Shown here one piece after another: positions 8,930-21,922 of a DNA stretch of 64,000 nt (the stretch's first letter is position 1; every line of letters begins with the position of its first letter). The translations under genes and the position numbers were made by a program. The notes under the pieces were generated by a model. The model saw only the letters and a program-made list of their open reading frames with translations. It did not search any database and was not told where the DNA came from. Origin of the DNA: Akkermansia muciniphila (GTDB lineage: Bacteria > Verrucomicrobiota > Verrucomicrobiia > Verrucomicrobiales > V1-33); assembly GCA_945900785.1 (NCBI GenBank), contig CAMDJM010000018.1, positions 1-64,000 of the forward strand. Direction: 5' to 3'.

Positions 8930-9295
8930 CGATTCCAATTCCGATTCTTTGCCCACTGCGGCCCTGCGGTGACTGGTGTGCGTGTTTTCCCAAAAAACAA
9001 CGATTTCCACCTGCCGATGGGCGTCTTTTCGTCTGCAGCGTGCGTTTAATTTTGGCAATGATTAAAAAACCCCATTTGTCCTCTATGATCGGTTTATAGC
9101 CTCATGGGCAGCAATCCCTCCTGCGACTAATCTTCCAAACGCGAAACCTTGAGCCTTGTCCGATCAACCACCCCTTTTTCCATCTCCCGTCTTGTTTAAA
9201 GTTGTAGAGGAATTTTTTCTTGACGATGTGGAACCTAAATCACATTCTCATTGCCACAATTGGATCACAATTCAACCAAACCCAAAAATCACCAT

Positions 9296-10114
9296 ATGAA
9301 CCTAACTCCACCGTCCCTAATCTCTAAAGCATCCGGGCTTGTCCTCCTGGGCTTGCTTTCCGCCAGCAACGCATTTGCCGCTGCCCCTGATGGGGGTGGT
9401 GATCTCAAATCTGATGATATTGTCGGAATTTCCTTCTGGATTATTTCGATGGCCCTTGTGGCAGCGACGGCCTTCTTCTTTTTGGAGACTCAGCGGGTTA
9501 CCCCGAAGTGGAAAACTTCCCTCACGGTGTCCGGCTTGGTGACCATGATAGCCGCCACGCACTATTTCTATATGCGCCAAGTGTGGGTGACCACGGGAAA
9601 CACGCCCACCGTTTTCCGCTACATTGACTGGTTGATCACGGTTCCTCTGCTAATGGTTGAGTTTTATCTGATTCTCTCAGCGATCACGAAGGTCCCTGCC
9701 GGAGTGTTTTGGCGCTTAATGATCGGGACAATTGTTATGCTCGTCGGTGGTTATGTCGGCGAGGCCGGATACATGAACGCCTGGCTCGCATTCATCATCG
9801 GAATGGCTGGTTGGGCATTTATCCTTTGGGAAATCTTTCTCGGTGAGGCTGGAAAGATTAACGCGAGTTCGGCACCTCCAGCGGTGCAGTCGGCTTTCAG
9901 CGTCATGCGTTGGATCGTTGTGATTGGTTGGGCGATTTACCCGATCGGATATTTCCTCGGCTATCTCACTGGAGCGAGTCCGGAGAAAAGCATGGTGATG
10001 CTGAACGTTGTCTATAACTTGGCAGATGTGGTGAACAAGATCGCCTTTGGAGTGATCATTTGGATCGCTGCAACGAGCGAAAGCGATAAGTCCCTAAATC
10101 CTTCCAAAGCTTGA
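9296..10114 (+). CDS. Proteorhodopsin, light-driven proton pump
   Basis: Seven-helix retinal protein of 272 residues that exports protons on illumination. An N-terminal signal peptide ends near NAFAAAPDGGG. Helix C reads RYIDWLITVPLLMVEFYLIL, giving the proton acceptor Asp111, Thr115 and proton donor Glu122 (the D-T-E set of proton-pumping proteorhodopsins) and Leu119 at the tuning position, which predicts green absorption. His89 matches the counter-ion partner histidine of helix B. Lys248 in NLADVVNKIAFG binds retinal. Trp173 in helix E fills the place where carotenoid-binding rhodopsins have Gly, so an antenna is not expected. The sequence is close to marine proteorhodopsins throughout. The ATG at 9296 was chosen over a TTG at 9251 because it begins the signal peptide. 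It heads the retinal-synthesis cluster. Confidence 0.96.
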   Translation: MNLTPPSLISKASGLVLLGLLSASNAFAAAPDGGGDLKSDDIVGISFWIISMALVAATAFFFLETQRVTPKWKTSLTVSGLVTMIAATHYFYMRQVWVTTGNTPTVFRYIDWLITVPLLMVEFYLILSAITKVPAGVFWRLMIGTIVMLVGGYVGEAGYMNAWLAFIIGMAGWAFILWEIFLGEAGKINASSAPPAVQSAFSVMRWIVVIGWAIYPIGYFLGYLTGASPEKSMVMLNVVYNLADVVNKIAFGVIIWIAATSESDKSLNPSKA

Positions 10115-10178
10115 GTGGGCTCATAAGGAGGGGAATTGGATGTTGATTGCTGCTACTCCCTGGCATTGACGAAATACA

Positions 10179-10213
10179 CATCATTCACTGCCAGCACGTG
10201 GCAGTGAATGATG
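10179..10213 (+). promoter_or_regulatory. Perfect 15-bp hairpin between proteorhodopsin and crtE
   Basis: CATCATTCACTGCCA (10179-10193), loop GCACG, and its exact complement (10199-10213) form a 15-base-pair stem. It lies 64 bases after the rhodopsin stop and its right arm contains two ATG codons in frame with crtE (10208, 10211). A run of A/T including GTTTTT follows a few bases later. It could be a terminator or attenuator between the pump and the pathway, or a block on the upstream start codons. Confidence 0.6.
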
Positions 10214-10231
10214 AAAATTTGTTTTTCATTC

Positions 10232-11137
10232 ATGAATGCTCCTTCCCCAACGCACTCCGGTTTGTCGTCGGCAGCGGCGGACAATTTGCTTGATGAGGTG
10301 GAAAGAGTGATGCGCCGCTTGGTCACTCACGGGGAGCCTTCCGGAGAAGACATGTTATCGGATTCCGCCCGGGCCGCCGTCGGTCATTTGGCTGCAGGTG
10401 GACAGCGGGTGCGGGCGCGCCTTGCGCTCGGAGCAGGCATCGCGCTCGGCCTTTTACCGCAGGACTCCATCGCGCTCGCTGCAACTTCCGAACTTTTGCA
10501 CAACGCGTCGCTCGTGCACGACGACTTGCAGGACCGCGAAAATGTCCGGCGGCGCAATCCGACGGTATGGGTGAATTATGGCGATGATGTGGCGATTTGC
10601 ACAGGGGACCTGCTCCTGTCTGCCGCTTATGGTGCGCTTGCTGCGGTAAGTGATCGTCGGCTACTGCCGGATTTGATCGCCCTCGTTCATGCCCGCACCG
10701 CGTTGGTGGTCCGCGGGCAATGCGCCGAGTTCTCTGCAAAGGGGCAACAGGTCACTGACATGGCGATGTATGAGAAAATTGCCGTCGGGAAATCCGGCGC
10801 TCTGCTCAGCCTTCCACTGGAGCTGGCCTTTGCAGCGGCTGGCAAAAAGGAGTGGATGGGCGGGGCGAGGCGCGCGGCGGAGGCTTTTGGCATCGGCTAT
10901 CAGATCATGGACGACATGGAAGATGTCGAAAGTGATGCCGCCGGCGATCACGGGCCGCGTGCTGTCAATGCGCTTTTGGTTTTGAGGGCCGCTGGTCACG
11001 GAACGAATGCCGAAGCGATGGCTCGCGAAATCGGTCTGCTGCACCTGCGCACGGCTATCGCATTGGCGGATCGGCTCCCGAACGAAGCGGGCGCATTTCT
11101 CCGTGGTATGGCCTTGGCTTTATGCCAACAGCTTTAG
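10232..11137 (+). CDS. crtE: Geranylgeranyl diphosphate synthase-type polyprenyl synthetase
   Basis: Condenses IPP with allylic diphosphates to make GGPP, the C20 precursor of carotenoids. The 301-residue protein contains the first Asp-rich motif DDLQD (97-101, after LVH) and the second, DDMED (227-231, in IGYQIMDDMED), plus RGQCAEF, which lies in the region of the substrate pocket. The frame also contains ATG codons at 10208 and 10211, but these sit inside a stable hairpin; the ATG at 10232 gives a normal N-terminus. The assignment as GGPP synthase rather than another chain length rests mainly on its place in the crt cluster, 18 bases before crtI. Confidence 0.92.
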   Translation: MNAPSPTHSGLSSAAADNLLDEVERVMRRLVTHGEPSGEDMLSDSARAAVGHLAAGGQRVRARLALGAGIALGLLPQDSIALAATSELLHNASLVHDDLQDRENVRRRNPTVWVNYGDDVAICTGDLLLSAAYGALAAVSDRRLLPDLIALVHARTALVVRGQCAEFSAKGQQVTDMAMYEKIAVGKSGALLSLPLELAFAAAGKKEWMGGARRAAEAFGIGYQIMDDMEDVESDAAGDHGPRAVNALLVLRAAGHGTNAEAMAREIGLLHLRTAIALADRLPNEAGAFLRGMALALCQQL

Positions 11138-11155
11138 GTTTGAGGAAACAATTTC

Positions 11156-12625
11156 ATGCAGGCAATCGTTATTGGAGCAGGTTTTGGGGGAATGGCAGCG
11201 GCACTTCGGCTACGCGCAAAGGGCTATGAAGTCACGCTGATGGATCGCTGCGCAAGTCTGGGTGGCCGTGCCCAAGTGTTTGAACTCGACGGTTTCCGTC
11301 ATGACGCTGGTCCGACCGTCATCACCGCGCCTTTTTTGTTGGAGGAGCTGTTTGAGCTTTTTGGCGAGCGCCTCGCCGATCATGTCGCGCTGGTGCCCTT
11401 GAAGCCTTGGTATCGCTTTCATTTCGCCGATGGCGACACCTTTGATTACGGCGGCAGTCTGGAGGAAACCCTCGCGGAAATTGACCGTATTGAGCCGCGC
11501 GACCGGGCAGGTTACCTTGCCTTGCTGGCGCACAGTAAAAGGATTTATGACGTGGGTTTCACGGAACTGGCCAGCCTGTCGTTTCACCGGCTGTTCACGA
11601 TGCTGCGCCAGATTCCCCGGCTGATCGGATTGCGAAATTACGAGACGGTCTGGAGCATGGTATCGCGTCATTTGCACAGCCCGAAACTCCGGCAGGCGTT
11701 CTCGATACAGCCCTTGCTGGTGGGTGGCAATCCTTTTGATACCACCAGCATTTACGGGCTGATTCATTTCCTGGAACGCGCTTACGGGGTGCATTTCGCG
11801 ATGGGAGGCACCGGGGCGATTACCCAGGCCCTGGAGGGTCTGATGCTGCGTCAGGGCGTTGACCTCCGGGTGAATACCACGGTCGGGCGCATTGTGATAG
11901 AGCACGGGACCGCCAAAGGGGTGGAACTGGCCGATGGCACCGTGCTCGCCGGGGACGTGATCGTTTCCAATGCCGATGCCGCGCATCTTTACCGGCAGAT
12001 GATTCCGCCTGCGCAGCAAGCTTTTTCGACCCGCCTGAAACTGGCCGCCGCGCATTTTTCCATGGGTCTCTTCGTGTTGTATTTTGGAACCAGACGGATC
12101 TATCCCAGCGTGGCGCATCACACCATCTGGCTGGGCGAACGGTATCGGGAGCTGCTGGACGATATTTTTCACCGGCAGGTGTTGTCAGAAGACTTTTCAC
12201 TTTACGTGCACCGGCCCACGGCGACCGATCCGGGCTTTGCGCCACCGGGTTGCGATAGTTTTTATGTGCTCTGTCCGGTGCCGAATTTGCAGGCGGGGAT
12301 CGACTGGGAAACGGAGGGGCCGCGCTTGCGGGACCGGATCGTGGCCGCGCTGGACCGCACGATCCTGCCGGGTCTAACCTCCACGATTACGGCGGACTTT
12401 TTCAAAACTCCCGCTGATTTCCAGCACGATTACCTCAGCGCCTACGGAGCAGGATTCTCGGTGGCACCGCTCTTCCGCCAGTCCGCCTGGTTCCGTTTCC
12501 ACAATCGGGCAGAGGGCATCAAAAACCTCTATCTCACTGGAGCAGGAACCCATCCCGGAGCTGGTCTGCCGGGCGTGCTTTGCTCCGCCAAAGTGGTGGA
12601 TGCGCAAATTCCCCACGCCGTATGA
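11156..12625 (+). CDS. crtI: Phytoene desaturase (CrtI type)
   Basis: FAD-dependent desaturase that converts colourless phytoene into lycopene. 489 residues, the usual length. The N-terminal dinucleotide-binding motif is GAGFGG at residues 7-12, followed by the conserved GGRAQVFELDGFRHDAGPT. The C-terminal CrtI signature LTGAGTHPGAGLPGVL is near residue 462. Nothing is missing. The product set by cluster context (crtY follows) is lycopene, although the number of desaturation steps cannot be read from sequence. Its stop overlaps the crtB start (ATGA at 12622), so the two are translationally coupled. Confidence 0.96.
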   Translation: MQAIVIGAGFGGMAAALRLRAKGYEVTLMDRCASLGGRAQVFELDGFRHDAGPTVITAPFLLEELFELFGERLADHVALVPLKPWYRFHFADGDTFDYGGSLEETLAEIDRIEPRDRAGYLALLAHSKRIYDVGFTELASLSFHRLFTMLRQIPRLIGLRNYETVWSMVSRHLHSPKLRQAFSIQPLLVGGNPFDTTSIYGLIHFLERAYGVHFAMGGTGAITQALEGLMLRQGVDLRVNTTVGRIVIEHGTAKGVELADGTVLAGDVIVSNADAAHLYRQMIPPAQQAFSTRLKLAAAHFSMGLFVLYFGTRRIYPSVAHHTIWLGERYRELLDDIFHRQVLSEDFSLYVHRPTATDPGFAPPGCDSFYVLCPVPNLQAGIDWETEGPRLRDRIVAALDRTILPGLTSTITADFFKTPADFQHDYLSAYGAGFSVAPLFRQSAWFRFHNRAEGIKNLYLTGAGTHPGAGLPGVLCSAKVVDAQIPHAV

Positions 12626-13563
12626 GCGGGGCCATTTCCGACAAAACACTGGCAGCAGCCGGGGAGGTGCTGGCGGCAAAAGGACGCAGCTTCCACTGGG
12701 CGCGCCGGTTGTTGACTCCGGTCCACGCCCGGCGGGCAACGCGGCTTTACGCCTTCTGCCGGCACCTTGATGATCTGGTGGATGAGGCCGCCACGCCGGC
12801 CGGAGCGGAAGCAGCCCTAACGGCGGCCCGCCTTGCCATCCAAACCGGGCAAACCACCGACCCGCAGCTGCACGACGGATTGAATCTGATAGCGGAATGC
12901 GCCATCGATCCGGAGATTGTTTTGGAACTCATCCGTGGCCTGGCCTCAGACCTTGGCCCCGTGTGCCTCGCCAACGAAGCGGAGTTGCTGCGATATTGCT
13001 ACCAGGTCGCCGGGACGGTGGGTCTGATGATGTGCCGGGTCATGGAAATCAGCGATCCGGCAGCCTTGGCGCATGCGGTCGATTTGGGGATCGCGATGCA
13101 ACTGACCAACATCTGCCGGGACGTGGCGGCGGATGCGGCGGCCGGAAGACGTTATTTACCCGCGACTCTCGTTGGGGAAATCGATCCCGCCGTCTTGATT
13201 GCGCCGACGGCATCCCTGCAACCCATGCTCCGCCGCACGCTGGCCAACCTGCTGGAACAGGCCGGTTTTTACTATCAAAGCGGAGAACGCGGCCTGCCGT
13301 ATCTGCCGTTCCGCGCCCGCTGCGGCATCCTCGTGGCCGCGCGGGTTTACCGCGCCATCGGCACCCGGCTGCAGCAGCGGGATTTTGCGTATTGGCAGGG
13401 CCGGGCCGTGGTCCCGGATTGGGCAAAAGCAGGCCTTTCCCTGCGTGCCTTGGTGACCCAGCCCCTGCGCTCCCGTTTCTGGCGCTGCCGGCCCCCGCAC
13501 GGCGGAGCATCCCATGGTCATTCCGCAGGACTAACCGGAACCGGAGGGCCTGATGCGCCCTGA
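12622..13563 (+). CDS. crtB: Phytoene synthase
   Basis: Joins two GGPP molecules to form phytoene, the first committed carotenoid step. 313 residues. Both Asp-rich motifs of the squalene/phytoene synthase family are present: YAFCRHLDDLVDE (DDLVD at about 50-54) and LTNICRDVAADAAAGRRYLP (about 157-176). The ATG at 12622 overlaps the crtI stop, and the gene's end overlaps the crtY start by 11 bases, as expected inside a tightly packed operon. The frame is open upstream into crtI, but that part belongs to crtI. Confidence 0.96.
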   Translation: MSGAISDKTLAAAGEVLAAKGRSFHWARRLLTPVHARRATRLYAFCRHLDDLVDEAATPAGAEAALTAARLAIQTGQTTDPQLHDGLNLIAECAIDPEIVLELIRGLASDLGPVCLANEAELLRYCYQVAGTVGLMMCRVMEISDPAALAHAVDLGIAMQLTNICRDVAADAAAGRRYLPATLVGEIDPAVLIAPTASLQPMLRRTLANLLEQAGFYYQSGERGLPYLPFRARCGILVAARVYRAIGTRLQQRDFAYWQGRAVVPDWAKAGLSLRALVTQPLRSRFWRCRPPHGGASHGHSAGLTGTGGPDAP

Positions 13564-14707
13564 CCTTCTGATCCTCGGGGGCGGCTGCGCGGGCTTGAGT
13601 CTGGCACGCCGGCTCTCCTCCGCGCCCGGCCAACGTTGTCCGGAAACCGTGGTTCTGGAAAGCCGCCAGGCGTATGCGGACGACCGCACCTGGTGCTTCT
13701 GGAGCGAACCCGGTGCCCAGTTGACCCATCTGGTCAGGCACCGCTGGCCGGGCGTTTATGTCGCAGCAAATGGGATCGTAGCCAACGTGGACTGCCGCGC
13801 CTTTCCCTATGCGATGATCCCCTCCCCCGCGTTTTACGGGGAATCGGTCAGCATGATAGGAAAAACAACGCAGATCCAGTTGGAATTGGGCGTTTCCGTG
13901 CTCTCCGAACCGATCAAAGCGGGAAAGGAATGGCACCTTGAGACCACCGCCGGGACGCGCTCCGCCCGGATGATTGTCGATACCCGCCCGCCCGGACCGC
14001 CGCTACGTGGGGAGGCCCTCCTGTGGCAATCTTTTGTGGGCCACGAGATCGAAAGCGCCGAGCCGGTCTTCCAGCCGGATCTCGCCGGGATCATGGACTT
14101 CGCACCTGTGCGCGGGGGGCGGATTCTCTTTTTTTACCTCCTGCCTTTTTCGGCGGACCGTGCCTTGCTGGAAGTCACCATCCTGGCAGAAGAACCTCTT
14201 GGGCCGGGCGTCTTTCACGACGAAATGCAACAGTTTCTCACGCGCACCCTGCGGGGGCGGGCCTACACCATCAGGCGTTCCGAGCACGGCATTCTGCCCA
14301 TGGGGATGCCTCAGCCGCCGGCGCCTGCCGACCCGACCTACGTCAAAGCCGGCGTCTTTTCCGGCGGCGCGCGCCCCAGCAGCGGGTATGCCTTTCAACG
14401 CATCCAGCGCTGGGCCAAGGACTGCGCCAAGGCACTCGCTGACGGCTTGCCGCCTTTGCCGCACCCCCGCGACCCGCTGCCACTCCGCGCGATGGATGCG
14501 CTTTTCCTGCGGGTGCTGCGCCACCAGCCGGAGCTGGCCCCGGAGCTGTTCCTGACCTTATTTCAAAAAGTGGACAGTGCCCGCCTGATCCGCTTCCTGA
14601 GCGATGGCGGGACTCCGCTTGATTTCGCCGCGATCATTTCGGGTTTGTTGCCCGGCCCTTTTTTGCGCGGAGCTTTTTCCGCGCTGACTTCATCACGCCC
14701 GCCATGA
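13553..14707 (+). CDS. crtY: Lycopene beta-cyclase
   Basis: Closes both ends of lycopene to make beta-carotene, the substrate for retinal formation. 384 residues, typical for bacterial CrtY. It starts with a flavin/dinucleotide-binding motif, LLILGGGCAGLSLARRL (residues 5-21), and shows the family hallmark DDRTWCFW near residue 43. The segment HGILPMGMP and the later VKAGVFSGGARPSSGYAF correspond to other conserved parts of the family. It overlaps crtB at the start and blh at the stop (ATGA at 14704). No ketolase or hydroxylase gene is present, so beta-carotene should be the end product before cleavage. Confidence 0.95.
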   Translation: MRPDLLILGGGCAGLSLARRLSSAPGQRCPETVVLESRQAYADDRTWCFWSEPGAQLTHLVRHRWPGVYVAANGIVANVDCRAFPYAMIPSPAFYGESVSMIGKTTQIQLELGVSVLSEPIKAGKEWHLETTAGTRSARMIVDTRPPGPPLRGEALLWQSFVGHEIESAEPVFQPDLAGIMDFAPVRGGRILFFYLLPFSADRALLEVTILAEEPLGPGVFHDEMQQFLTRTLRGRAYTIRRSEHGILPMGMPQPPAPADPTYVKAGVFSGGARPSSGYAFQRIQRWAKDCAKALADGLPPLPHPRDPLPLRAMDALFLRVLRHQPELAPELFLTLFQKVDSARLIRFLSDGGTPLDFAAIISGLLPGPFLRGAFSALTSSRPP

Positions 14708-15594
14708 ACGCCCAACGTCTCCAAGGCACGCTGTTTTGTCTGCTGGCTTTACCCATGGCACTGGCGGCATCTGCGGTTAGCCATTCTGCTCCGCAGATCG
14801 GAGTCATCCTGCCCGCCGTGATGATCGCCGTCTTCGGCATTCCCCATGGGGCGCTCGACCCCATTTTTGCGGATCGGCTCTACGGCATCCGCTCCCTCTG
14901 GGATTGGCTCCGGTTTGGCCTCATCTACCTGTTGCTGGCTGCTTCCGTGGTCGCCTTTTGGAGGGTCGCGCCGGTCTGGTTTTTGATCGGCTTTTTGATC
15001 ATCTCGGTCCTGCACTTTTCCGGTGATCCGGCGGAGGGCACGCCCTCCGTTTCGCGCCTCCTGTATGCGGGAGCCATCATCATTTTGCCTGGGTTCCTGC
15101 ATCAGGGGGAAATGGCCCGCCTCTTCGGGCAACTTATCGGTAGCGGTCCGGCCCAGGGGCTCAGCGCCGGACTCACGTGGCTCGCTTGGCCATGGGCCAT
15201 CAGCCTCGTTTTGGCGGCTCTGGAATGCTGGCGTCGCGACAGGTTGACGGCCTTGGAAATGATTTCCACCGGCCTGCTGGCCGTGCTTTTCCCGCCCCTC
15301 GTATCCTTCACCATTTTTTTCTGCGGCATGCACAGCGCGCGGCACATCATCCGCACCGTCGCCTACGCCGGGCGTTCCCCGCTGCGGGTGTTGATGTCAG
15401 CCGCGCTCCTCCCCCTGGCCGGCACCGGCCTCCTGTTTGCGGTGGCTTGGCACTTCCTGAAAAACACGCCGGCGGATGCCCGCGTCCTGCAAATCGTCTT
15501 CATTGGCCTCGCCGCCCTCACCGTTCCCCACATGCTTTTGGTGGAACGGGTGCGGCTCTCCGGCTGGTCGAAAATTCCCCCGCCCCCTTGCTGA
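14704..15594 (+). CDS. blh: Brp/Blh-type beta-carotene 15,15'-dioxygenase
   Basis: Integral membrane iron enzyme that splits beta-carotene into two molecules of retinal, the chromophore of the proteorhodopsin. 296 residues with many hydrophobic helices. Conserved iron-ligand histidines are visible in FGIPHGALDPIF (about residues 46-57), VLHFSGD (about 102-108) and CGMHSARHIIR (about 205-215). It is the last gene of the pump/retinal cluster, overlaps crtY, and ends 28 bases before the convergent FG-GAP gene, so the operon boundary is sharp. Known activity of this family plus context makes the assignment firm. Confidence 0.95.
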   Translation: MNAQRLQGTLFCLLALPMALAASAVSHSAPQIGVILPAVMIAVFGIPHGALDPIFADRLYGIRSLWDWLRFGLIYLLLAASVVAFWRVAPVWFLIGFLIISVLHFSGDPAEGTPSVSRLLYAGAIIILPGFLHQGEMARLFGQLIGSGPAQGLSAGLTWLAWPWAISLVLAALECWRRDRLTALEMISTGLLAVLFPPLVSFTIFFCGMHSARHIIRTVAYAGRSPLRVLMSAALLPLAGTGLLFAVAWHFLKNTPADARVLQIVFIGLAALTVPHMLLVERVRLSGWSKIPPPPC

Positions 15595-17154: not shown

Positions 17155-17754
17155 CTATTGAGGGGCAGGGCAATTCGCCCTCTCCTCCGGTGTCAGCCGC
17201 GTCATCGCAGCCTCCACATCATGAACAAAACCGGGCGCGTATTGCACCTTGGTCTTCGTCCACCAGGGCGCCCCGCCGGGTGAGCAAAGCCACCTGGCCA
17301 GCGATGGACCGGCACCCCTTTCGAAATTGCTGGCCTCAAACACGCCGGTAACCGTCCTATCCCAGATGTGGAACGTCGCCCAGGTATGTTCCGAGAGCAG
17401 GCTCTCAAACCTTAACCTATCGATAGCATCCAGTGTCCCCCCGTTCAGCCCCGCGACCCAGAGCTGCGCGACGTCGCGGTCACCGGCCAACGTGAGTCGG
17501 ATCGCCTGCCACTGGGCTTGCGTAGCGTTGCTCTCTTCGCGCTGAAGTTGGCTCGTGTTCAGCCGCAACTGAAGCCCGACGTAGATCAGCGAAGCCACGA
17601 CGGCGATTGCACCGACGACTTGGAAGGCGTTCGAGAGGTCTTGCAGCCATCCGCAGGCAGGCCTCCCGCCCACGTCGGCAGGATTGTTGTCTTGCGGCGA
17701 ATCCTGGGTCGCATCGGTTACGGCTTCAGCCATCTCTTCTTGTGCTATGCTCAT
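17155..17754 (-). CDS. Cassette-borne hypothetical membrane protein
   Basis: 199 residues from the ATG at 17754. An acidic N-terminus (IAQEEMAEAVTDATQDSPQ) precedes one membrane segment, VVGAIAVVASLIYVGLQL, then a mostly helical region (LNTSQLQREESNATQAQWQ...). This layout resembles a common family of bacterial proteins with 'ASLIYVGLQLRLNT' followed by a helical domain, known from many environmental genomes but without assigned function. It starts 36 bases after attC-like element 1, so it is the last cassette of the array. The frame runs upstream through that element, which is not part of the protein. Confidence 0.65.
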   Translation of the reverse strand: MSIAQEEMAEAVTDATQDSPQDNNPADVGGRPACGWLQDLSNAFQVVGAIAVVASLIYVGLQLRLNTSQLQREESNATQAQWQAIRLTLAGDRDVAQLWVAGLNGGTLDAIDRLRFESLLSEHTWATFHIWDRTVTGVFEASNFERGAGPSLARWLCSPGGAPWWTKTKVQYAPGFVHDVEAAMTRLTPEERANCPAPQ

Positions 17755-17789
17755 AATTTTTCGGACGTAGGTCTGACCCTCATTAAGGT

Positions 17790-17882
17790 GGCTAACGACT
17801 CGGATCAGGCGACGGCGAGCGGGAAACGTCGATGACACGACAGATGCCATTCGAGCCGTTGCCTGCATCCGTTTTGTTGAAC
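17790..17882 (-). repeat. attC-like palindrome, copy 1
   Basis: Imperfect palindrome. Plus-strand arms GGATCAGGC (17802-17810) and GCCTGCATCC (17861-17870) pair except for one extra base, and the stem continues as GACGGC against GCCGTT. The outer boxes are GGCTAAC (17790-17796) and GTTGAAC (17876-17882); the latter fits the GTTRRRY core of integron recombination sites. The unpaired extra base in one arm is a hallmark of attC sites. Two near-identical copies lie at 19751-19858 and 21052-21144. Confidence 0.65.
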
Positions 17883-19191
17883 GGGTTCGCTCTGCTCAAG
17901 CGCTTCGCCAGGCCGTGGAGCGGGGTTTGAAGGAGGTGGGTTGCCATGGCGGCGGGATGGGGGAGATGGCAGGCGTAGGAAAAAACATCCATTACTAAAA
18001 TATCCTATCCCTCTTTAGCCCGTTTCGCTGGTCATGTCCAGTTCAAAGGAGTGCGGTCACAGACCGCAAAGGGGAGCACACGCGCCCTGCGTGTCGTGGA
18101 GGGCGCCCCCGCCCTCCACCTGAAAACCGCCCGGCGCAGCCGCACTTTAATTCCACCGAGTCCGGGCGGTGCCCCCCATCTCACTTCAAGACCGCTTCAG
18201 GCTCCACCGCATCCGTCACGATGCGGCGCGGATGGATTCCCGACGTTTTGCCATAGCGCCAACCGTGGCTGCACAGGGATCAATTAGCCGCTTCGCGGAA
18301 AGGTGGCAAGTCTTCCGCGCGGTGCGAAAGACGACACGTGGGGCGCGTGTGCTCCGCATTGATTGCCCTGCAGGTTGATTCACTCCGTTCACCCCTGCGG
18401 GGCTGCTCCTGCGTCGCAGTCTGTCTCCGCTGCGCTGCGGCTCACGCGGGTGCGGCGGCATGAGGGGGGAGAACAGGCGTCCCGCCTGTCCCGCCGGGTG
18501 TCCCACCCGGTGCCAGTGCCTTGGCAGGAACCCACTGCAAGGATACATGGACCGGTGCCTTGAATTCCCATAGCTCCGGCACCCGGCAGGATGCCGGGCG
18601 GGACAGCCGGGACGGCTGTTATCCCCGGCACTTGCAGCCTCCCCGGCACGGGTGAGCCAGCTCCTGCGGGCGGGCGACGTGGTAGTGTTTCTCCCTGACA
18701 AGGCGGAAATCCTCTGTCCCTGCTGCGGTCACGTCATGATTTTTTTCCACGCCCTGCGCACCCGCGCCCGGCCTCCGCCGCCGCTACCGCTACCGCCACC
18801 GCTACAGCCGCTGCTACCGGTAAACTGCTGCGCCACCGCCATCCCCGCATGAAGCAGTCACCGGCAAATCTAATTTCCGCCCAGCCGGTCCTGACGCCAT
18901 CAAAACGCGTCAGGCCCGGCTCTGGTGGATCATGCCCGGAGGCGGCGGATTTTGCGTTTTGGCCCTGGAAGTCCAGGCCCAGCCACTGCTTCCAGGCATC
19001 AGCAGAGCCCCTTCCCGGAGCCATTCGGGTGGTCAAAGGCTCCGCCCGCCCGTTCAGCCTGACCCGATGGAAGCCGAAACCGGATTTAAGAGAGGAGAAG
19101 CGCCGGGAGGCTTTACCCACTGACGCCCCGGCCACAAACCGGTCCTGAACCGGACCATGCCCAAAGGCCAACCGCGGATCGTTCAACAACC
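17883..19191. other. No convincing gene; hairpin-repeat-rich stretch
   Basis: About 1.3 kb between two cassette genes. Open frames here have low-complexity, Arg/Pro-rich translations on every strand and I support none as a gene. The stretch holds a cluster of short GC-rich hairpins (18473-18619) and a run of alternating CCG/CTA-type triplets near 18770-18830. Confidence 0.5.
18473..18619. repeat. Cluster of hairpins with a GGA/TCC triloop
   Basis: Three perfect 7-bp hairpins share the same three-base loop: ACAGGCG-TCC-CGCCTGT (18473-18489), CCGGGTG-TCC-CACCCGG (18494-18510) and ACAGCCG-GGA-CGGCTGT (18603-18619). Two more of the same design are inside 23890-23990, and a mosaic of the first two is at 8583-8604. 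They look like a REP-type family. Confidence 0.75.
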
Positions 19192-19221
19192 GTTATCATC
19201 GGGGCTGCGCCCGATGATAAC
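19192..19221 (-). terminator. Strong hairpin after the cassette genes
   Basis: GTTATCATCGGG (19192-19203), loop GCTGCG, and its exact complement (19210-19221) form a 12-bp stem 33 bases after the stop of the minus-strand gene at 19255. There is no long T run, so it may be a terminator or only an mRNA-stabilising structure. Confidence 0.45.
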
Positions 19222-19254
19222 CATGGTCATTCGGGGTTTTCGGGTGTTGGAAGC

Positions 19255-19554
19255 TCATAGTGTGCCCGCCTCGAGTTGTTCCAAGTAGATGAAATCGGGA
19301 GACCTGACGCCCGCCTCTTCACGGATTTTGACGAGCTTGGGTGACTCGAAAAAACGCCTGGCATCGTCAATGGATGTCCAGACAGAGAAATGAACAATAC
19401 GGTTGGGGTTGTTCTGATACTTGAGAACCTGATAAGACCGCTCGCCAGCCTCCCTGCGAATATCGGCAGCGCCGTCGAACACCTTCTTCCACGCAGGGTA
19501 GTCCGCGACCTCGTGGATAATGAGAACGTGCTGGATGGCTGATTGTGGGGTCAT
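19255..19554 (-). CDS. Cassette-borne ABM-like dimeric alpha-beta barrel protein
   Basis: 99 residues beginning MTPQSAIQHVLIIHEVADYP. The pattern of a first strand (HVLIIHEV), DYPAWKKVFDGAADIRREAG helix, YQVLKYQ strand, RIVHFSVWTSIDDARRFFES and a final strand FIYLEQLEAG is that of antibiotic biosynthesis monooxygenase-like ferredoxin folds (PF03992 or a relative), small enzymes or stress proteins that act as dimers. No catalytic residue is obvious. The start overlaps the stop of a small upstream reading frame (ATGA at 19554), so the two were translated together. Fold call is moderate; substrate is unknown. Confidence 0.68.
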   Translation of the reverse strand: MTPQSAIQHVLIIHEVADYPAWKKVFDGAADIRREAGERSYQVLKYQNNPNRIVHFSVWTSIDDARRFFESPKLVKIREEAGVRSPDFIYLEQLEAGTL

Positions 19555-19741
19555 TCTTCGTTGGCGTAGTAATCGGCTTCCTGGAGCGTGAAGCACTTGC
19601 GATATAGCTTCACGAACGTTCGTAGTCCTCCCACAATGATTCAATCGTGAACTCTTCAGTGATTGGTATGTATTGCTGACTGTGCACCGGAGCGTGGGTA
19701 TTCGGCTTGAGCGCAAGAAGTTCTCTAAAGCGTTGGAACAT
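19551..19741 (-). pseudogene. Small cassette gene split by a frameshift
   Basis: From the ATG at 19741 a frame encodes 43 residues (MFQRFRELLALKPNTHAP... ending EEFTIESLWEDYERS) and stops at 19610-19612. A second frame, overlapping that stop, continues with VKLYRKCFTLQEADYYANEE and stops at 19551-19553, overlapping the start of the next gene. Joined, the two make a smooth acidic protein of about 63 residues (WEDYER|VKLYRKCFTL), so one base was probably lost or gained. No family is recognised. It follows attC-like element 2 by 10 bases. Confidence 0.5.
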
Positions 19742-19750
19742 CAGTTTCTT

Positions 19751-19858
19751 GGCATTACGTCCCGGATCAGGCGACGGCGAGCACAAGACGTTGCTGGCAC
19801 GACAGATAGCCTTCGAGCCGTTGCCTGCATCCGTTTCGTATTTCGTTGGTTGTTGCGC
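19751..19858 (-). repeat. attC-like palindrome, copy 2
   Basis: Same palindrome as at 17790-17882: arms GGATCAGGC (19764-19772) and GCCTGCATCC (19823-19832) with one unpaired base. The outer core boxes are degenerate here (no clean GTTRRRY), so the copy may be inactive. It begins right after the stop of the gene at 19863. Confidence 0.6.
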
Positions 19859-19862
19859 GTGT

Positions 19863-20210
19863 TCACGATGGGAGGGCGGTCTGGGTCCAAGTCTCGTCGT
19901 GTGTTGACGGATAACTCTCGTCGGTCAGTATGCGTCGAACTCCAAATAGCCAAACCAACAGTCGTATCAGCCGTCTCTCCCGGTTGGGATCCATACAATC
20001 AAGCTCGACGATGGTAAACTCCGTCTTCACCCCTGACGGTTCAAATGCCATTCCTGCTCGTGAGCGAACGACCCTGAGGCCACGGCAACGGCAATATCTC
20101 TTCCCAAAAGAGATGCAGATGCGGTCGAGCGTGCAATGAACCAACCAGCCCAAGCCAAGTATGGCAGGAACAGCAACGACTGCGGCAATGACTATCAAAG
20201 CAGTTGGCAT
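19863..20210 (-). CDS. Cassette-borne hypothetical protein with N-terminal membrane segment
   Basis: 115 residues. The N-terminus is hydrophobic (MPTALIVIAAVVAVPAILGL), then a cysteine-containing middle (CTLDRICISFGKRYCRCRGL) and a strand-rich C-terminal part with GVKTEFTIVELDCMD. No family is recognised. It is followed directly by attC-like element 2 and preceded by element 4 (33 bases), so it has the layout of an integron cassette: one short gene plus one palindrome. Confidence 0.55.
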   Translation of the reverse strand: MPTALIVIAAVVAVPAILGLGWLVHCTLDRICISFGKRYCRCRGLRVVRSRAGMAFEPSGVKTEFTIVELDCMDPNRERRLIRLLVWLFGVRRILTDESYPSTHDETWTQTALPS

Positions 20211-20242
20211 TCTGATGTGAGTATTGCGATCGGAGATGCGGA

Positions 20243-20371
20243 GTTAGGCGAGCGCTGGCACCGCTGGGGCGGGGGTGGGGGTGGGCGTCGAAACGGGTTG
20301 GCGGGTTAAAGCTACGGAAAGCAAGGCCGACAGAGCAGCCCCAGCGGTTGTCCAGCCGCGCCTTGTTAGAC
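20243..20371 (-). repeat. attC-like palindrome, distinct type (copy 4)
   Basis: The plus strand has GCTGG-CA-CCGCTGGGGC (within 20253-20270) pairing with GCCCCAGCGG-TTGT-CCAGC (20338-20355), that is, two paired blocks with an unequal internal bulge. Outer boxes are GTTAGGC (20243-20249) and GTTAGAC (20365-20371); both fit GTTRRRY. They are direct rather than inverted, which is unusual. The right box lies four bases after the stop of the gene at 20376, the normal place for an attC site. Confidence 0.6.
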
Positions 20372-20375
20372 ATTT

Positions 20376-21041
20376 CTAGGATGCGAGATCCCATATCGGT
20401 TTTCCCAGGAACGCCGAAAGAGTGCCGACATCAGCCCGCATTCTGGTCAGGTCTCCGTGATCCACGACATTGATGCGCCGTCCATCCTCCAAAACCAGAT
20501 TCAACTCAAAACTATAGTAGGATCTATCGGAACGGGTTGAACTTAGGTATTCAGGAATCAGCTGCAACGCATGGATGTCGTCAAGTTTGGCCCGATTTTT
20601 CAGCGGCTCCGTCTCCAATAACGCATTCGGGGTCTTGCGCCCCTTCCAGAAATACCCAGTCCCTTTATCAAACACGATTGACGCCGTGCCGGAGTAAAGA
20701 AGGCAAGCTCCCAACGTCGCGACGACAATACCCGCCACGAAAAGCACTCCTTCGCGGACATGGAACGCGAATCCGCCGGAGGGAAGCTTCGTGACCGAGG
20801 CCGCCCACATCAACGCCCCCCCGATCAAGAGAACAATGAAGTAAAATAGCAGGGCTCCGGATGAGGCGCGGAATTGCAATCTGGAACCAACCATGGTCGC
20901 TTTGTGCGTTCTGAAATTATTGCCCCCACTTTTTAGCGGTGACCATTGAGTCTGCATGGCAACCGCGTCACCAATACGCGATGGATCAAAGAAACCGCGT
21001 TCGTTCGGCTGATTCACAACGATGTTAACATTCATGGGCAT
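20376..21041 (-). CDS. Cassette-borne hypothetical membrane protein
   Basis: 221 residues. A polar N-terminal 60 residues are followed by two membrane segments (ALLFYFIVLLIGGALMWA and GVLFVAGIVVATLGACLLY) and a strand-rich C-terminal domain of about 110 residues (ASIVFDKGTGYFWKG, SYYSFELNLVLEDGRRINVV), which looks like a PH-like or DUF-type beta domain on the membrane face. No named family. It starts 11 bases after attC-like element 3 and ends 5 bases before element 4, so it forms a complete cassette. Confidence 0.62.
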   Translation of the reverse strand: MPMNVNIVVNQPNERGFFDPSRIGDAVAMQTQWSPLKSGGNNFRTHKATMVGSRLQFRASSGALLFYFIVLLIGGALMWAASVTKLPSGGFAFHVREGVLFVAGIVVATLGACLLYSGTASIVFDKGTGYFWKGRKTPNALLETEPLKNRAKLDDIHALQLIPEYLSSTRSDRSYYSFELNLVLEDGRRINVVDHGDLTRMRADVGTLSAFLGKPIWDLAS

Positions 21042-21051
21042 GGATTCTTGT

Positions 21052-21144
21052 GTTTAACGCCCCGGATCAGGCGACGGCGAGCGGGAAGCGTCGATGACAC
21101 GACAGATGCCATACGAGCCGTTGCCTGCATCCGTTTTGTTCCGC
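21052..21144 (-). repeat. attC-like palindrome, copy 3
   Basis: Arms GGATCAGGC (21064-21072) and GCCTGCATCC (21123-21132) as in copies 1 and 2. The box GTTTAAC (21052-21058) fits RYYYAAC on the plus strand and reads GTTAAAC on the minus strand. It sits 15 bases after the stop of the gene at 21159. Confidence 0.65.
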
Positions 21145-21158
21145 CTTTTTGATCGTTG

Positions 21159-21524
21159 TCATAAATCGCGAAACGGGTTTCCAATTGCACGCCAAGTAAA
21201 TAGAAGCGTCGCAATATGGAATCCTGCGATTCCAATATTGCTTATCACGACAGGGTTCTTAAACGTTCCGACGGTTATAGGCGTGGTGAGTTTATAAATG
21301 ATCTGGATTATCAATAGTGCAGCGACGGACCGCGGATCTCGAAATACGAGCAAGATGGCGGATACAGCAAGGATACTCAAATAGATCGACAGAAGAATTC
21401 CACGCGCAGGCGTTGCTTCTCCGTAGCTTACCTGGGTCCATCCTGCCTGCATCATGAGACCTACGCAGACTGGAACGAGAACGGCTATGTTCAAGAGCAG
21501 TGAAAGTATGAGCATTGTATTCAT
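21159..21524 (-). CDS. Cassette-borne small polytopic membrane protein
   Basis: 121 residues with about four hydrophobic segments: MLILSLLLNIAVLVPVCVGL, GILLSIYLSILAVSAILLVF, SVAALLIIQIIYKLTTPITV and VVISNIGIAGFHIATLLFTW. It resembles small four-helix proteins of unknown function that are frequent in environmental genomes. It is the first gene of the minus-strand array. The 398 bases upstream, up to 21922, hold no gene I can support; they are AT-rich and include the divergent promoter region for the DUF429 gene. Confidence 0.6.
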   Translation of the reverse strand: MNTMLILSLLLNIAVLVPVCVGLMMQAGWTQVSYGEATPARGILLSIYLSILAVSAILLVFRDPRSVAALLIIQIIYKLTTPITVGTFKNPVVISNIGIAGFHIATLLFTWRAIGNPFRDL

Positions 21525-21922
21525 TGAAATCCTCGAGTTAATCGTCCCGAATGCGCATCAACGACTATGTTGGAAGTAGGTGCTTATTTGTTTGCCGAAT
21601 AGTCTATTATACCACCAGATCTGGTGGGATATCCATATGGGGAATTGCCTTCATTTGGCGGGTTGGCAGGGGTTAAGGGCTTGATTTCCAATGGATATGG
21701 TTTCTAACGGAACAGCATATCCAGCCCAACAGGATTTGCAAGAAATTTTAAGGGTTTCAAGGGTTTGCTGAAGGTTCAGTTTTATTGGTTTTCCGGGGTT
21801 GGCGGTTGGCTGGAAGTGACTTTTGCGTGCGGGCGGATTCCCGGATTCCGCTTTTTGATTTCTCCTGCGGAGCGTTGCCTTTTGGGTCTTGCTGTGGGGT
21901 GGATTGCGCCTTGGTTGGAGAG

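Follow-up and report, generated by a model that had tools for sequence, protein, structure and literature searches.

The window analyzed here, a stretch of 64,000 nucleotides, lies on contig C18 of a Verrucomicrobiota MAG, the assembly of which comprises 172 contigs (5.08 Mb, 86% complete). An integron cassette array occupies positions 17155–21754 of the minus strand and is made up of ORF and attC units in one orientation, with three attC sites of one type (type 1) and one of a second type (type 2) (Table 1). As originally predicted, palindromes follow the stop codons of minus-strand ORFs, and in general each lies directly after its gene; the exception is the last, which is separated from the cassette 4 gene by a repeat of 1.36 kb. 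In contrast to the original description of short genes separated by palindromes, this segment (17879–19242) lacks any obvious gene and belongs to a repeat present in multiple copies. The array also extends beyond the end first assigned to it at 21524, its true upstream limit being 21754 with inclusion of the attI leader. No attC was seen after the last gene (17155–17754), which is thus either a cassette whose attC has been lost or a resident gene. Searches of the cassette proteins with PADLOC and NCBIfam returned no family, and a search of the array against Rfam yielded no match.

Table 1 Features of the cassette array, listed from the attI end (window coordinates)
Feature	Position	Strand	Details
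attI leader (remnant)	21590..21754	-	6 full copies in genome; lies between intI and cassette 1 in G004
Cassette 1 gene, 121 aa, membrane-like	21159..21524	-	No Pfam family above cut-off
attC type 1	21050..21148	-	Crossover GTT at 21058-21056 intact; covariance score 118.5 bits
Cassette 2 gene, 221 aa, membrane-like	20376..21041	-	No assigned family
attC type 2 (fourth palindrome)	20243..20371	-	R'' GTCTAAC; 3' crossover GTT missing compared with relatives
Cassette 3 gene, 115 aa	19863..20210	-	No assigned family
attC type 1	19750..19848	-	Crossover changed to GTA at 19758-19756
Cassette 4 gene, 99 aa	19255..19554	-	Antibiotic biosynthesis monooxygenase (ABM); Pfam PF03992, E 2.7e-06
Non-coding interspersed repeat E	17879..19242	-	Between cassette 4 gene and last attC
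attC type 1	17788..17886	-	Crossover GTT at 17796-17794 intact; covariance score 118.1 bits
Last gene, 199 aa	17155..17754	-	No assigned family

The type 1 palindromes are 91 nt long (21140–21050, 19840–19750, and 17878–17788, minus strand), and the first and second share 93% and 79% identity, respectively, with the copy at 17878–17788. We folded the palindromes as plus-strand single-stranded DNA, the strand that IntI would use. Those of type 1 paired into arms GGATCAGGC/GCCTGCATCC, leaving a single base extrahelical (z-scores of -2.0, -3.5, and -2.1), and the fourth palindrome (about 20371–20243) differed in sequence but was equal in design (z-score of -1.8). Alignment and folding thus bore out the prediction of three near-identical palindromes with one extra base, as did folding that of a fourth, unrelated in sequence and of the same design. 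The hallmarks of attC (an imperfect palindrome, an extrahelical base, an internal spacer, and a variable terminal loop) were all apparent, and the predicted outer boxes GTTTAAC, GTTAGAC, and GTTGAAC were found in the array. With z-scores no better than modest (-1.8 to -3.5), the identification relies on conservation across genomes and on the cassette ends.

A search of the genome recovered a total of 16 type 1 palindromes on 10 contigs, as well as five matches to type 2 on four contigs. Alignment of the 16 copies revealed a core of constant length, CGGAT-g-CAGGC ... GCCTGATCCG, and a lineage covariance model with 14 stem pairs built from this alignment matched in 11 of 13 family genomes. Among the matches listed for an exact 19-base piece of attC, most were from Verrucomicrobiota (Verrucomicrobiaceae, Akkermansiaceae, Spartobacteria, Prosthecobacter, and Luteolibacter), with a few titles from other phyla, which may reflect chance or misbinning; type 2 was also recurrent in many of the listed Verrucomicrobiota loci. 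Given the 16 copies on 10 contigs and the recurrence of both types across Verrucomicrobiota, the palindromes are not due to chance. Copies situated away from small genes had been named as evidence against an integron; at the inspected loci around attI leaders, to which this result is confined, all attC sites detected shared the orientation of the leader.

Crossover in integrons takes place at G^TT; whatever follows the G is thus part of the next cassette, and these letters are expected to pair with the R'' box at the other end of that same cassette. In 70 related cassettes flanked by type 1 sites, the left end (TTNNNN) was indeed complementary to the cassette's own R'', with a full six-letter match in 74%, compared with an average of 35% and a maximum of 54% in 2000 shuffles. 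The two boxes of a single site matched in 43%. When the test was restricted to pairs of a leader and its first attC, the signal was weak (perfect in 5 of 12, with a shuffled mean of 2.6 and about 2% of shuffles as good), the perfect matches including those at C84 and C3 in the window genome and in G004, G010, and G011. A GTT at the same offset was present in 164 of 186 related attC sites and in two of the four in the window, and the window array retains only partial complementarity of cassette ends, with three of six letters matching for cassette 1. The protein encoded by cassette 1 has counterparts of 74–75% identity in the arrays of G009 and G011; its gene follows attI in the window array but a type 2 attC in those genomes, and the sequences diverge at the crossover.

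These data also bear on whether the array is not an integron at all, with a palindromic REP or MITE-like interspersed repeat having come to lie between small genes by chance. The genome does contain additional interspersed repeats, including one within the array, which would fit such an explanation. Copies of the palindrome, however, have the R'' and R' boxes as their limits, matches between cassette ends are more frequent across the gene than inside a site, and in relatives this attC is found next to both intI and attI. We consider this explanation extremely improbable.

The attI leader, of about 165 nt, is located ahead of the first cassette gene and contains a TATAAT box at 21611–21606. Its crossover triplet, at 21600–21598, has changed from GTT to ATT. 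Within the window genome, the leader recurs on contigs C46, C3, C25, C84, and C15. Conservation of the leader ends at GACTGTT, with the loci being variable beyond this point, and the limit of homology thus coincides with the G^TT crossover. In G004, which belongs to the same genus, the order is a divergent intI, the leader (73% identical), a cassette, and a type 1 attC, and the final 40 nt of the leader are conserved at the same place in G010 and G011. The window leader corresponds to the attI that relatives carry next to an intact intI, but its triplet reads ATT. We also considered that the leader might be an ordinary promoter repeat, but dropped this notion because relatives have it in the interval from intI to cassette 1.

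With four attC sites on a contig without intI, the array corresponds to a CALIN (at least two attC and no intI nearby). Given that the leader has been retained and resembles the attI that accompanies intact intI genes, however, the array appears, from its sequence, to be more than a bare CALIN; the description that fits it best is a decayed integron of which the attI end is preserved. The original prediction of a CALIN or the far end of a chromosomal integron was thus correct as to the integron type and the lack of an integrase, but the end preserved is that of attI, with the leader retained. A CALIN might also arise by off-target insertion, in which case an IntI encoded elsewhere would have placed cassettes at a chance site that was never attI. 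This process may apply elsewhere in the genome, given that the attC loci on C76, C1, C123, C29, and C22 showed no leader in the stretches inspected; for the window array, which begins with the leader just described, it is very improbable.

A search with the TIGR02249 profile detected no intI on the window contig, so that intI does not adjoin attI as it does in a complete integron, and only Xer-like partial matches in the rest of the bin. A tblastn search with the G004 integrase revealed NH2-terminal remnants with stop codons beside the leaders at C3 and C46, and no relic beside the window attI. The predicted absence of an integrase from the array therefore holds, with relics being present elsewhere in the bin. 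Given that the MAG is 86% complete, an intact intI may sit in the missing part, and its product might still move cassettes in the window array in trans. The array on C84 of the same genome, in which attI and attC are intact and the cassette ends match perfectly, is consistent with such activity, as is the intact intI of G004. On the other hand, three of five crossover triplets in the window have been lost (ATT in attI, GTA in one type 1 attC, and deletion in the type 2 attC), and the bin contains intI relics only; a live array here is unlikely.

With these triplets lost and no intI on the contig, the window array is most likely a fossil. We conclude that it is very probably the remains of an integron, with attI and a promoter-like leader, four or five cassettes, and intI gone. 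Points that weigh against this conclusion are the incompleteness of the MAG, the merely partial match of cassette ends in the array, the lack of an intI relic beside its attI, and the lack of an attC after the last gene. A lineage-specific IntI would once have cut at G^TT and inserted circular cassettes successively at attI, and the leader promoter would have driven the first genes. The intI gene would then have been lost from this locus, after which the sites drifted and the array became frozen. Given that there are at least six full attI copies in the genome, two of which (C3 and C46) adjoin truncated, 5' intI relics, the array would be one of a set of related and mostly decayed platforms.

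We counted attI-like leaders in 13 family genomes with a sequence-only leader model. The window genome contained eight matches (six of them full), G003 two, G004 one, G009 20, G010 28, and G011 30, with none in the seven other family genomes; the carriers of many leaders are related, freshwater-type Verrucomicrobiota. A search of 142 genomes of the order, performed with stricter filters that lead to undercounting, identified the leader in seven, six of which are from two genera of the window family. Leaders of G009 and G011 mostly end in CTGTT and are followed by cassettes that start with CGCC, CTGC, AGGC, or CGGC. A recognizable attC was present within 3 kb for 20 of 50 leaders inspected. On the same strand as the leader, 30 attC sites were downstream and seven upstream, and there were none on the opposite strand on either side. 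For the remaining leaders, the attC was decayed or of another type, there was no cassette, or the contig end was too near. Some leader loci were at the same place in G009 and G011 and others were not, and comparison of five copy pairs revealed no common left boundary or terminal repeats of a leader-bearing unit. Tandem leaders of the same subfamily, 1.4–4.6 kb apart on a given contig, were observed at L209, L210, L216, L219, L232, L235, and L236, in some cases with few or no recognized attC in between.

The intI genes of G004, G011, and G009 scored above the TIGR02249 cut-off, and at E ≤ 1e-30 one intI was found in each of G009, G010, and G011. The integron integrases of the family (L050:796-2157, L053:1126-2451, and L049:1180-2439) possess an NH2-terminal extension of about 105–135 amino acids, without a Pfam match, before the SAM-like domain, and the first part of this extension is conserved in relics. 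Remnants of intI were present upstream of at least eight leaders, several comprising only the first 40–60 and last 25–80 codons. At L229 (G009), the flank past the remnant is the intact-intI flank of G010 and nearly that of G011, indicating an in situ deletion of intI at this locus. A join near residues 43 and 353–360 is common to L233 of G009 and to L226 and L221, which occupy separate positions in G011, and C3 and C46 have about 530–560 bp of upstream sequence in common, including the remnant. Given that intI remnants thus share a deletion, comparison of these sequences suggests that platforms from which intI had already been deleted were copied. The shared deletion also weakens the notion that the dispersed leaders reflect complete integrons acquired one by one. 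In the upstream flanks of L221, L226, and L233, a hairpin-rich repeat (GGCGTTCCTACAGAACGCC, GTGTCCCGTTGGGACAC) begins at the end of the intI remnant.

The usual description of an integron is that of a single integrase with a single docking site and a single array. A tentative possibility for this Verrucomicrobiota family, which we would not yet call probable, is a distributed integron, with the platform having been copied, also after internal deletion of intI, to as many as about 30 chromosomal places and a single intact IntI loading cassettes in trans onto these promoter-bearing attI docks. Known chromosomal integrons, by comparison, have only one intI-attI platform. If so, the unit of attI and deleted intI would be akin to a non-autonomous mobile element. 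The combination of many docks, most of them with a deleted or missing integrase gene, with one intact integrase found per genome offers a natural setting in which to examine the origin of arrays that lack an integrase, and the lineage also allows study of whether attI platforms spread within a genome and whether an integrase acts in trans on remote attI sites.

Previous studies have described clusters of cassettes that lack intI, the loss of intI, its pseudogenes, and duplication within a genome (PMC9024848, PMC8618304, PMC12444791, PMC2426708). The window array resembles CALINs, which have been proposed to be degraded integrons, in having several attC without intI nearby, but it differs from them in retaining the attI leader, one of at least six full genomic copies. 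Xanthomonas pseudo-integrons (PMC12444791) and the arrays of a genome survey (PMC2426708) share with it the loss of intI and a frozen cassette array, and the latter study inferred that intI pseudogenes had been duplicated within genomes; here, by contrast, about 20–30 attI-like leaders per genome are present in three relatives, many with an internally deleted intI. The Delta-attI cassettes of class 1 integrons (PMC12901181) similarly place attI away from its single position adjacent to intI, and class 1 attI sequences or fragments in cassettes still recombine away from intI (PMC12901181). Those are resistance cassettes of mobile integrons, however, whereas nearly whole leaders are spread over chromosomal loci here. 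In taxon-specific attC families (PMC8352920), the chromosomal attC type is likewise nearly uniform within a taxon, but the present Verrucomicrobiota lineage has two attC types. Verrucomicrobiota are listed among integron-bearing phyla (PMC8618304) and are absent from the 11 taxa with attC models in PMC8352920; they now gain two conserved attC types and an attI. We found no published report of tens of dispersed attI in one genome, in a search that covered subscription journals thinly. Integrons and CALINs are a known kind of system; what is new here is that attI has been retained and, especially, that attI platforms are dispersed in such numbers.

Repeat E, of about 1.36 kb, contains internal inverted repeats and has many copies in the window genome (for example, L024:4809-5963, L028:5716-6881, L031:1-766, L040, and L041), several of which end exactly at the R'' box of a type 1 attC. 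A gene-less cassette was considered, given that GTTGAAC at 19187 would pair with the other end, but was not adopted as an interpretation because other copies begin upstream of this box. A DUF429 gene that neighbors the array has no counterpart in the family genomes, and an empty site could therefore not be demonstrated. Also beside the array is a complete-looking retinal/rhodopsin cluster (window 9251–15594, plus strand) with genes for rhodopsin and then polyprenyl synthase, a phytoene desaturase-like protein, phytoene synthase, lycopene cyclase, and beta-carotene dioxygenase.
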